Position numbers and translations under genes: made by a program. A stretch of 64,000 nt of DNA from a gamma proteobacterium HTCC2207 (lineage in GTDB: Bacteria; Pseudomonadota; Gammaproteobacteria; Pseudomonadales; Porticoccaceae). The notes beneath the pieces are model-generated. The model saw only the letters and a list, made by a program, of their open reading frames with translations. It made no database searches and was not told where the DNA came from. Shown in pieces: positions 42,615 to 49,880 of the stretch (its first letter is position 1; each line of letters begins with the position of its first letter). Where the stretch lies: positions 10,782 through 74,781 of the forward strand of contig CH672400.1 of the NCBI GenBank assembly GCA_000153445.1, written 5' to 3'.

Positions 42615-43280
42615 TTATTTTAAAAGCTGCTTTAAATTATCCAGCTCAGATAAGGCCTGTTCTTTGCTCGCTCGCTTCATCGATGTCTCGGGCAATGCCG
42701 CTGGGGGTTCCACAGTAAACACTTCACCGGCGATTACGCGCGCGCAAAACTGCTGATAGGTTTCTGCAAATTGCGGAAAGGCTTTGCTCTCGACAGTGTT
42801 GGCCAAAAAGTGCCAGCCACAGTCGCGGCCTGCTGCATAGACTGCTGGGTGAGACCATTTCTGTGCCGCCTTTGGACTCGGCATATTGCACGCTTCAAGA
42901 TAGGCTTTTCGCGGCGAGGGCAGACCGTCGGGCATACCCACCGCGCGACAGGCATTGAGCATCTTGTGCAGAGTTGGCAGGTAGTCATTATCGGCGATTA
43001 TCTTTTCTGCGGCCAACAAAATAATACGCGGAGCAAAATCTCCCAGGCTCGACAGCCACAACTTTTTCGCCAGACCAACAGATTCGTTTTTATCACCAAA
43101 GGCCGCGTAATACTGGTTGTGGTAATTGGCACGGAACAAGGCAAAGGTCTGATTGATTGCGTCAATCAGTTCCGGAGTCGCTGGGGTCGGTTTAGCTTGC
43201 CCAGCTGCGGTCGGTGAGGTCTTCGACGAAGCTGCGATCTCGGATGCGACCGTTTGGATTAGATCCTTGTTGTTTGCCAT
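42615..43280 (-). CDS. Phage lambda P-like replication protein (putative helicase loader)
   Basis: A 221-residue protein starting at ATG 43280 (MANNKDLIQ); the frame extends upstream but that part only shadows the next gene. A low-complexity Ala/Ser/Pro/Thr linker is followed by a helical domain (LIDAINQTFALFRANYHNQY, LWLSSLGDF), LPSPRKAYLEAC, and KWSHPAVYAAGRDCGWHFLA, then FAETYQQFCARVIAGE. These motifs fit the phage replication protein P family, which loads DnaB helicase. It overlaps the DnaT-like gene by 89 bases. The role in this chromosome is inferred. Confidence 0.8.
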   Translation of the reverse strand: MANNKDLIQTVASEIAASSKTSPTAAGQAKPTPATPELIDAINQTFALFRANYHNQYYAAFGDKNESVGLAKKLWLSSLGDFAPRIILLAAEKIIADNDYLPTLHKMLNACRAVGMPDGLPSPRKAYLEACNMPSPKAAQKWSHPAVYAAGRDCGWHFLANTVESKAFPQFAETYQQFCARVIAGEVFTVEPPAALPETSMKRASKEQALSELDNLKQLLK

Positions 43281-44388
43281 GTGCTGTATCCGTTGACGAA
43301 GGTTGAATATGTCGCGCCCACTGGCGCTTAACGAACTGAAGAAACTTAGTACTCCAAGAACTCTGGGGCATGCCATTCTCTTGCCAATAGAGAATAAATT
43401 CCGGCACCAACTGCTCGGCGAACTGGCGGTTGATATTGGCCATCTGCAGTACATCGTAGACCGATGCTCTGGGCTGCCACTGAGCTTCAATTTTGCGCGG
43501 CATACTGTCTTGTTCCATCATGCCAGAGAAAAACTGCCACTGGCGACGTATATGCTGGATAAACTTCGAGTCCCAGGTGCTGGATAGATCACCGCGATCG
43601 CGCCAGTAGAGAATAAACTCGGGGATCGAATCTTCAATAAAATTGCTATTTATACCCCCCTGACCAATCAATATTTGCAGGGCATCTCGTGAGGGTCGCC
43701 ACTCATTGGTCAGTGCCACCTCCTGACGGCGGCGATGGGAGCTAGCTTCAGCCTGTTGCCACTGACGCCAGACCTCTTTAATAAATTTCGACTCCCAGCT
43801 ATGACGTGGCACATTGCGCTCGCGCCAATAGGTGACAAACTGCGGAATTTGCTGCTGGGCAAAGAGCTGAGTCACGCCCAGCTGACTCAGCTGCCGCATC
43901 GCATCCTGACTTGGCTGCCAGCTATTGCCCATGGTCTTGGCCGAGGTCGGTATGCCATTGGAGGGCGTGGCTGTTGTTGCACTGTGGTTATAAGCGGGCT
44001 GCTGACGTTGATTGCTATGCTGTTGCGAATTTGGTTGAGAACTTGTTTGAGAGCTCGTTTGCGGGCTCTGACTGATACTAGTCGCCACGCCATCATTAAA
44101 GGCAAAGCGAAAGTCCCGCTGTGAGGAAAAAGGTGCGCCGCCAATCAGCAGCAGGCCCTTCTCATGGAGTCCCGCCGAAAGGCGCAGAATATCGTCCTCT
44201 CGCCAAAAGGGTGCCAGGCTCAGGAGTTTCTCTGATGCCACCGTAAACCATTCAAAACCTTGGTTTTGCTCCGGGGTGCCATGACTGCGGCACTCCTGCA
44301 AAAGTTGCAGCAACACGGTCTCTTCCAGCCCGATAGTGGCGGCCAGAGTAGGTGAAATAGTGATCGGTTTTTCGGGTATCAAAGACAT
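43192..44388 (-). CDS. Replication-restart type protein with three tandem DnaT DNA-binding domains
   Basis: A 398-residue protein. The N-terminal 95 residues (ISPTLAATIGLEETVLLQLLQE) look like a winged-helix module of the phage replisome-organiser kind. A Gln/Ser/Thr linker follows (about 105-155). Then come three repeats of the DnaT single-strand-binding domain: WQPSQDAMRQLSQLGV...WESKFIKEVWRQW, WRPSRDALQILIGQGG...WDSKFIQHIRRQW and WQPRASVYDVLQMANI...WSTKFLQFVKRQW. E. coli DnaT has one such domain. Pairing with the P-like gene suggests a primosome/helicase-loading unit. Confidence 0.82.
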   Translation of the reverse strand: MSLIPEKPITISPTLAATIGLEETVLLQLLQECRSHGTPEQNQGFEWFTVASEKLLSLAPFWREDDILRLSAGLHEKGLLLIGGAPFSSQRDFRFAFNDGVATSISQSPQTSSQTSSQPNSQQHSNQRQQPAYNHSATTATPSNGIPTSAKTMGNSWQPSQDAMRQLSQLGVTQLFAQQQIPQFVTYWRERNVPRHSWESKFIKEVWRQWQQAEASSHRRRQEVALTNEWRPSRDALQILIGQGGINSNFIEDSIPEFILYWRDRGDLSSTWDSKFIQHIRRQWQFFSGMMEQDSMPRKIEAQWQPRASVYDVLQMANINRQFAEQLVPEFILYWQENGMPQSSWSTKFLQFVKRQWARHIQPSSTDTAHGKQQGSNPNGRIRDRSFVEDLTDRSWAS

Positions 44389-47949: not shown

Positions 47950-49880
47950 ATGAAAAATATCCGCTCTATGGCGACAGTTGCTACTGTCTCGCTACTATCT
48001 GTTTTACCTTTTGCGGCCCAAGGACAAACTGCCCAACAAACCGAAATTGAAGAAGTGCTGGTCAGCGCTTCTCTGCTGCCTATTTCCGCCTCGCGCTCGG
48101 CTAATGCGATCACAGTGATCGATAGCAAGCAGCTTAAAAACCGCGCTGCGCTGAGTGTCAGTGACTTGCTGAGGGATGTGCCAGGACTGGCGGTGAGCCG
48201 CAGTGGTGTTCAGGGCTCGGCGACGCAAATTCGTGTTCGCGGGGCTGAAGCCAATCATCTTTTAGTGCTAATCGATGGCGTCGAAGCCAATGATCCTTCC
48301 CAGAGTGATGAGCTCAATTGGGGTACCTTGAGTGCCGCTGATATTGAGCGCATCGAAGTAATTCGCGGTCCACAGAGTTCACTGCGCGGCAGCGATGCTA
48401 TGGCTGGTGTGGTGAATATTGTTACTCGCCGTGCTGACCGACCGCTGAGCGTCAACCTGTTTTCAGAGACCGGTAGCTTTGGAACTTACCATAGTGGTTT
48501 GAGTATTGGCAGCAAGCAGGGCGACTTTGATGGCCGCCTGAGTGTCAACCATATTGAAACCGAGGGTGAGAACATATCTCGCACTGGCAGTGAAAAAGAC
48601 GGTTACCGAAATACCAACATAAACCTCAATGCTGGCTGGACAGTTAGCGACGAGCTGCGACTTTCTGTCGCTGCACGTCAGTCCGATGGTATGAATGAGT
48701 TTGATGCCGACGGGGATTTCGATGGATTGGTTGACGATCAGGAAAAGGTCTCTGAATTCCGCAATAGCACTATGCGTATTCAGGGCGACTATGTCTCTGC
48801 CGATGGCCGCTTCCAGCACAAGTTGGTGATCGCCCAATCAAACAATGATAACGAAGCCTTCGATACTGGCGTATTGGGCACTTACACTTCATCAACCAAA
48901 TATCAATATCAGTATGTTGGTTCAGCTTTCTGGGATGAATCCTCACAGCGCTTGTCTGTATTGGCGGAACATGAAGAGGAAGATTTCCAGCAGCGTGGGG
49001 CAATTGATGACTATGGGATCTATGGTATCTATGACCCCAATCAGGATCGCGAACGCAACACTGACAGTATTGCGATCGAATACCGCAACGATATTTCCGA
49101 TGCCCTGAGCCTTGCTGCCAGTGCACGCTATGACGATAACTCGGAGTTTGATAGTGCCAATACCGTTAGAGTTGAAGCTGTTTATCAGCTCAACGACGGC
49201 ACCCGTCTGCGCAGCGCCTATGGTACCGCCATTAAGAATCCGACGTTCACAGAGCGCTTCGGTTTCTACACTAACTTTATTGGCAACCCCAGCCTAGAAC
49301 CTGAAGAATCTACTAGCTGGGAGCTAGGTATTGATCAGATGCTGTTTGATAACAGCCTGACATTATCCGCAACACTATTTGACACTGAACTTAAAAATGA
49401 AATTAATGGCTCCGCTGTCGATCCGGTTACATTTGGCTATACCGCAGTTAATAAAGAGGGTAAAAGTCAGCGCCAGGGTGTTGAACTAACCGCCATTGGA
49501 ACACTGACTAACAGTCTTTCTTTAAATGCTGCTTATACCTACACCGATTCTGTTGAGTGGGATGATGAGACACGTGTTTATATAGATGAAGTGCGTCGTG
49601 CCCGCCATATGGCGAGTTTAAACCTGTCTTGGCAGGCAATGGACATCTTCATATCAATACCAATGTCCAGCATAACGGCTCTCAAACTGATGTGGTATTT
49701 CCCGATATTGTGGCTTTAGACAGTTATACATTGGTCAATCTTAACGCTAACTTCAGTGCGACTGAAAAGCTGGATGTCTATCTGCGCTTGGATAACCTGT
49801 TCGATGAAAGCTATGAGGAAGTGTTTAGCTATCAAACATTGGGATTCGGCGCCAGCCTCGGTGTGCGCTTTAGTTTATAA
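47950..49880 (+). pseudogene. btuB: BtuB-type TonB-dependent cobalamin receptor, frameshifted near the 3' end
   Basis: An outer-membrane corrinoid importer. It has a signal peptide (SVLPFAAQG|Q), a TonB box (EEVLVSA), a plug domain (AITVIDSKQLKNRAALSVSDLLRDVPGLAVS) and a barrel. In the frame from 47950 the protein ends with 589 residues, but after about 49630 the last barrel strands (GNGHLHINTNVQHNGSQTD... to GASLGVRFSL) continue in another frame to a TAA at 49880. A one-base loss (CAGGGC to CAGGC) or an AGGC tandem loss explains this. The rest is intact, so recent decay or a sequence error are both possible. Confidence 0.9.

Follow-up and report, generated by a model that had tools for sequence, protein, structure and literature searches.

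In a 64,000-nucleotide stretch of the genome of the gamma proteobacterium HTCC2207 (contig CH672400.1; hereafter the window), two overlapping genes on the reverse strand encode a protein with three DnaT domains and a helicase loader of the phage lambda P type. We consider it likely, with a probability of about 0.72, that this pair is a chromosomal helicase-loading module of phage ancestry, derived from an O-P gene pair, that stands in for DciA or DnaC; in this bacterium and its relatives the phage-derived pair probably loads the chromosomal replicative helicase. The triple-DnaT gene (43,192 to 44,388; 398 residues) has an O-like layout with a winged helix, three DnaT domains and a conserved tail, and the P-type gene (42,615 to 43,280; 221 residues from its ATG start) overlaps it by 89 nucleotides (43,192 to 43,280), the ATG of P lying in DnaT codon 370 in another frame. 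For this start, the ATG at 43,280 was preferred over a TTG further upstream. The original prediction, made from the sequence alone, had correctly placed the pair at 42,615 to 44,388 with a first protein of 398 residues. It had read the pair as a primosome or helicase-loading module, and this reading is supported by repeats that match the DnaT model, by the lack of a DciA match and of a DnaC match over cut-off in the same genome and by the retention of the pair in relatives.

The Pfam DnaT model (PF17948, cut-off 25 bits) matches the 398-residue protein three times (213 bits in total, E 3.2e-64), with each domain exceeding the cut-off: D1 at 43,741 to 43,935 (70 bits), D2 at 43,534 to 43,716 (86 bits) and D3 at 43,303 to 43,494 (79.7 bits). 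No further DnaT match at E <= 0.001 was returned by this search from the genome, which measures 2.63 Mb and is 98.6% complete. An AlphaFold model of the protein (predicted local distance difference test, pLDDT, 83.4; predicted template modelling score, pTM, 0.44) predicts an N-terminal winged-helix domain (44,092 to 44,388; residues 1-99, in blocks mostly above 90 pLDDT), then three DnaT units, all helical, and finally a tail of low confidence that includes a short helix. Domain search and model thus bear out the claim of three DnaT domains behind a winged-helix-like N-terminus, including the number of copies per protein. A DnaT unit of the model resembles solved DnaT structures (4ou6, Z 8.7; Salmonella 6aeq, Z 8.6), and no Foldseek match of the model reached E <= 0.001. 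The winged helix is closest to the N-terminal domains of initiators (4pql, Z 9.3; 4pt7, Z 9.0) with the winged helices of CRP and LexA trailing by no more than ~1 Z (Z ~8.4); the fold is a common one, and no ligand could be inferred for the domain; the same region is matched by a DnaD-like loader family (phrog_6493, 2.2e-5). The equivalog model for primosomal DnaT (NF002770) scores 13.5 bits, below its cut-off of 201, and by sequence the protein is classed as a DnaT-domain protein and not filed as DnaT itself. The name DopC may possibly apply to this O-like triple-DnaT protein. The aromatic signature F..[arom]W, corresponding to F124, Y127 and W128 through which, together with basic residues, each C-terminal domain of E. 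coli DnaT is reported to bind two nucleotides of single-stranded DNA (PMC4132743), is kept in D1 of 65, D2 of 76 and D3 of 76 of the 76 triple-domain genes found in the genome survey described below.

The P-type protein matches the family of P-like helicase loaders in PHROG (phrog_109, 3.8e-14), and a profile of 84 of its relatives matches the lambda P chains of solved DnaB complexes (8v9t, 9oa1 and 9oa2; E 1.2e-5). Its predicted structure (pLDDT 89.5) is closest to the lambda P of 9oa1 (Foldseek probability 1.00, E 5.3e-4; Z 10.2 over 195 aligned residues, where Z values below about 13 can be common among helical proteins), and a root-mean-square deviation of 7.0 indicates that its parts fit better than their overall arrangement. 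Family, profile and fold together confirm that the next gene is phage-lambda-P-like, as had been predicted. Pfam and NCBIfam gave no match over cut-off for the P-type protein, and a single-sequence phmmer search of the PDB did not find lambda P. Pfam matches to MgsA_C, DUF4391 and RhaT fell below cut-off and were dropped as chance, and the DciA model (PF05258) matches neither protein of the pair in Pfam at E up to 1. The G39P loader/inhibitor is matched weakly (PF11417, E 0.02, 15.8 bits with a cut-off of 22; 1no1, Z 9.2 to the predicted structure), and lambda P is reported to sequester DnaB and, when produced on its own, to be toxic (PMC4926192, PMC3640518). Both points would suit a helicase-inhibiting or anti-phage device in place of a loader, but the replacement of DciA and the vertical conservation over 28 families set out below would be unusual for a defence gene, and we hold this explanation to be very improbable.

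We searched 194 genomes of the same order and found DnaT domains in 119 and DciA in 61 (58 of them over its cut-off), with no genome having both. With the P-type protein as query, 120 genomes were recovered, namely all 119 DnaT genomes and one (G060) that has DciA. At these loci, which were picked by a P or a DnaT match, 119/119 DnaT genomes from 28 families have the DnaT gene directly ahead of P and on the same strand; the P match starts before the end of the DnaT open reading frame (ORF) in 93 of them and more than 60 nucleotides past it in 7, including one split gene. Triple DnaT is not confined to HTCC2207: three domains are encoded by 76 of the 119 genes, one by 35 (15 short ones and 20 that have a long N-terminus), four by 4 and two by 4, the last count including the split gene (G116). 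The HTCC2207 genome itself has no DciA match and no match to IstB/DnaC (PF01695) over cut-off, with three weak matches in ORFs of 528, 845 and 865 residues. DciA was found only in genomes that lack DnaT and P as a pair, and judged by these matches the DciA slot seems to be taken by DnaT and P. Outside the order, a class sample of 274 genomes yielded DnaT in 7 besides HTCC2207, of which those with two or three DnaT domains (G196, G238, G367 and G223) show no DciA match and those with one (G459, G292 and G269) do; P adjoins DnaT in G196, G238, G367, G459 and G292, and no P match was found in G223 and G269.

PriB (TIGR04418) scores over its cut-off of 72 bits in 20 of the 194 genomes, 15 with DciA and 5 with neither DciA nor DnaT/P, and in none of the 119 DnaT genomes, HTCC2207 having no match to the model at all. 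Weaker matches to the PriB model of 20-34 bits, in ORFs of ~165-270 residues that also occur in DnaT genomes, were counted as SSB by length and score only, and two further matches under the cut-off (49.8 bits in G018, 54.6 bits in G035) come from genomes without DnaT. PriC is over cut-off in 0/194, three matches at E <= 0.001 falling below it. The original prediction had proposed to look for missing dnaC, dciA and priC and for conservation of the pair in relatives, and these counts agree with it on both points, DciA being present in 0/119 of the genomes that hold the pair. The lack of PriB and PriC over cut-off in DnaT genomes could also be taken to mean that the pair acts mainly in replication restart, in a PriA-dependent primosome without PriB, and that initiation at oriC is left to another, unrecognised loader, the more so as E. 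coli DnaT is described as docking on PriA and forming filaments on lagging-strand single-stranded DNA in restart (PMC13377028). Yet in the 194 genomes the pair never occurs together with DciA, which is reported to be essential for initiation in P. aeruginosa (PMC5109545), and lambda O and P are reported to start replication at the phage origin (PMC3640518, PMC6022878), so that we regard a role mainly in restart as unlikely. Five genomes of family f43 (G043, G080, G109, G160 and G182) have PriB over cut-off and match neither DciA nor DnaT/P; they possibly hold a diverged DciA, as G136 of the same family has a match below cut-off.

A tree of DnaT domains was made from 82 of 287 domains over 63 columns, with one three-domain and two one-domain genomes per family, one four-domain and no two-domain protein, and G116 dropped; many of its forks are open and the bootstrap had not settled. 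The D2 domains from 22 families form one starred clade (99/82), as do the D3 domains (96/93), and the two clades are sisters (94/90), each of which also takes in a single domain from a four-domain protein. Neither includes the D1 domains, which do not form one clade and of which some are near single-domain proteins. Because D2 and D3 are each one clade with D1 outside, the tree bears the mark of one old triplication in which D1 would be closest to the ancestral unit, and a separate origin of the three domains in each lineage is not supported. Repeats within one protein are on average 35-38% identical, and domains at the same position in different genomes 40% (D1), 55% (D2) and 54% (D3). In the four-domain proteins of family f16 (L066, L090, L091 and L100), the sampled member has its last two domains grouping with the D2 and D3 clades on long branches, and the extra domain, which is strongly diverged, seems to be placed between D1 and D2.

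The P tree comprises 72 rows (at most 2 genomes per family and class; in addition 9 rows from phages and 9 of phage-type or extra P; G116, G113 and G027 left out). All 54 bacterial rows beside DnaT come together (85/89, not starred) with phage, prophage and extra P outside, P beside three-, two- and four-domain DnaT makes one starred clade (100/98), and rows cluster by family. An acquisition from phage long ago, as suggested by the original prediction, fits this separation. With tblastn, phage relatives of P at 23-30% identity were recovered in 19 records (Pseudomonas 15, Marinomonas 2, Halomonas 1, Microcystis 1). On the initiator side, phage StM171 has a single-DnaT protein of which 217 of 288 residues match residues 2-219 of the 398-residue protein (26% identity, E 6e-3). 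With such phage relatives, and with several further phage-type P genes in genomes of family f35 (3 to 10 P matches per genome), the pair might be a phage-derived replicon pair or a decaying prophage remnant that has no role in chromosome replication, but it is kept in every DnaT genome across the 28 families, its P tree clusters by family and its neighbours in the window are ordinary, which makes a pair without such a role hardly credible.

Past the last DnaT domain, a variable linker leads to a motif that is fixed, LTDRSWA in HTCC2207 (43,198 to 43,218; residues 391-397). In an alignment of 56 of the 80 three- or four-domain proteins, all 56 of them three-domain, D393 and W396 are invariant and S395 (0.98) and A397 (0.95) nearly so. 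The pattern [DN].[SDNQ]W follows the last DnaT domain in 117/119 proteins, the misses being the split gene and one DRGW, compared with 5% of shuffled last-30 tails; [DN].[SDN]W lies within the last 30 residues in 116/119, and the motif is common to one-, two-, three- and four-domain proteins. We rejected the explanation that the tail is kept merely because P starts inside the DnaT gene: the first 30 residues of P have a mean conservation of 0.33 versus 0.49 for the rest, whereas D393 and W396 are invariant. Three proteins of family f47 (L052, L056 and L150) have two low-scoring DnaT domains that start 31-82 residues into the ORF, leaving scant space for a winged helix, with tail motif and P neighbour still present.

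A similar ending is found in lambda O (TNTDWIYGVDL) and in the O protein of PAJU2 (NDTSWAVGLEQDLF). In E. coli, where dnaT adjoins dnaC, DnaT ends in SQIPPGFRG without a D-x-x-W tail, and the motif is also missing from StM171, which has a DnaT domain and no annotated P adjoining. The same holds for G223 (0.9 Mb, 97% complete), where an ORF of 274 residues (L368) has two DnaT domains and the genome matches neither P, by the 84-sequence profile, nor DciA. Among the class-sample proteins beside P, 4/5 end in DRHW, DKEW, DTDW or DTSW, of which DRHW and DKEW are outside the strict pattern; L371 (G269), where the profile found no DnaT ORF, contributed no tail. We then considered 115 viral loci (L250-L364), of which 113 had a readable P ORF and 99 an upstream ORF, giving 65 distinct tails, with 80 near-identical lambda contigs excluded from the counts. 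The strict motif occurs in 17/65 tails versus 4/1280 other ORFs, and 15 of the 17 place it 6-9 residues before the end, like lambda O, the other 2 elsewhere; some of the ORFs behind the 65 tails may not be O-like. A broader motif, defined only after the strict result had been seen, occurs in 30/65 viral tails versus 10/656 ORFs around bacterial pairs. In the text of PMC6022878, a lambda O amber allele that yields 294 of 299 residues (named Oam29 in the text and Oam205 in the tables) has a plating efficiency of 0 without suppressor, the last five O residues are called essential by the authors and the C-terminal region of O is cited as P-binding. The five residues lost come straight after TDWI, and the allele leaves the W itself in place.

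Several observations weigh against a helicase-loading module of this kind or against parts of it. First, 14 of the 194 genomes have neither DnaT/P nor DciA, which makes absence by profile an imperfect measure, and the DnaC search covered the HTCC2207 genome only. Second, the exclusion of DciA does not amount to 194 independent events, the P tree suggesting one acquisition in the order. Third, the pTM of 0.44 means that the mutual placement of the domains is not predicted, the aromatic signature is less frequent in D1 than in D2 and D3, and a second signature, W..[KR][FL], is kept in 57/76 (D1), 67/76 (D2) and 67/76 (D3). Finally, the tail motif is absent from one bacterial DnaT-P pair (L370), from over half of the phage genes that precede P, and from gp37 of Marinomonas phage P12026 and the MACPNOA1 gene, both of which lie beside P.

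By analogy with lambda P, the P-type protein of the proposed helicase-loading module would bind the DnaB ring and open it, and the triple-DnaT protein would serve as platform. Its three domains could lie side by side on single-stranded DNA at about two nucleotides each, judging from the E. coli structure, as a pre-linked piece of the filament that in E. coli is assembled from individual DnaT molecules. Because the C-terminal domain binds two nucleotides in E. coli and the aromatic signature is kept, the protein may represent a linked filament segment that spans ~6 nucleotides and works without PriB. The winged helix would take it to duplex DNA or to DnaA or PriA, and the flexible D-x-[S/D]-W tail would dock P-DnaB and thereby bring the ring onto the exposed strand, be it at oriC, at stalled forks or at both. 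We tentatively propose, at somewhat less than even odds, that O docks on P through the D-x-[S/D/T]-W tail, an ancient signal shared from lambda O to chromosomal multi-DnaT proteins, that a single fusion of three DnaT domains gave a filament segment with which PriA and/or DnaA recruit P-DnaB without PriB, and that the whole clade relies on this one-chain platform. How a platform on single-stranded DNA recruits the helicase-loader complex is at issue even in E. coli; in the present case a single polypeptide whose number of DnaT domains is fixed would form the platform, with an adjoining loader gene and a short tail as possible hand-over site, and if the tail is indeed a docking signal, it would also mark a definite place at which lambda O may contact P.

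The pair shares with lambda O-P an O-like gene that overlaps P, membership of the P family by profile and fold, and the D-x-[S/D]-W tail. Unlike the O-like protein here with its three, lambda O has no DnaT domain by the DnaT profile, which among 8 phage proteins upstream of P matches only those of StM171 and VW6S. With E. coli it shares the DnaT domain fold and a dnaT gene directly upstream of that of the loader, dnaC, whereas E. coli DnaT has 179 residues, a single DnaT domain, DnaC as loader and no such tail. Passages of PMC13377028 describe the C-terminal domains of E. coli DnaT as a left-handed filament on lagging-strand single-stranded DNA outwards from PriA, with the linker binding PriB, a partner that is over cut-off in no DnaT genome here. 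The likeness to DciA lies in the slot that the pair seems to occupy and not in the proteins, neither of which matches PF05258. According to Brezellec 2016, dna[CI] and dciA are missing from every member of the order Cellvibrionales, and the paper asks if another loader substitutes for these. From its gene pattern we infer that HTCC2207 belongs to this group. By its title and the texts that cite it, Brezellec 2017 (doi 10.1093/gbe/evx111) reportedly describes a third helicase matchmaker of bacteria that arose by the domestication of lambda genes. This third type is tied to hosts without dciA and dnaC/I, and HTCC2207, with no DciA match and PF01695 below cut-off, is such a host; most likely the pair belongs to that lambda-derived system, for which the name DopE occurs in PMC13326638, and the module is probably already known in kind. 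Our literature searches, which did not cover Brezellec 2017, found no report of the triplication or DnaT tandem, of the PriB result or of the tail shared with lambda O.

The surroundings of the pair are ordinary. Of ten flanking ORFs examined, eight have ordinary Pfam matches (secretin, AAA/peptidoglycan-binding, AceK, SDR, GNAT, KaiC-like ATPase, TonB receptor and diphthamide-synthase-like classes) and two have none; the KaiC-like ATPase is taken for RadA. Among these ten ORFs, to which the scan for phage genes was limited, the sole PHROG 'head and packaging' match is phrog_1012 (M13 protein IV) and corresponds to the GspD-type secretin, in keeping with the earlier remark that no phage structural genes are near. 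In the TonB-dependent receptor (47,950 to 49,880 of the window), the ORF stops at 49,719 and an ORF in another frame (49,629 to 49,880) resembles the end of the barrel, a split that may reflect a frameshift or an assembly error.
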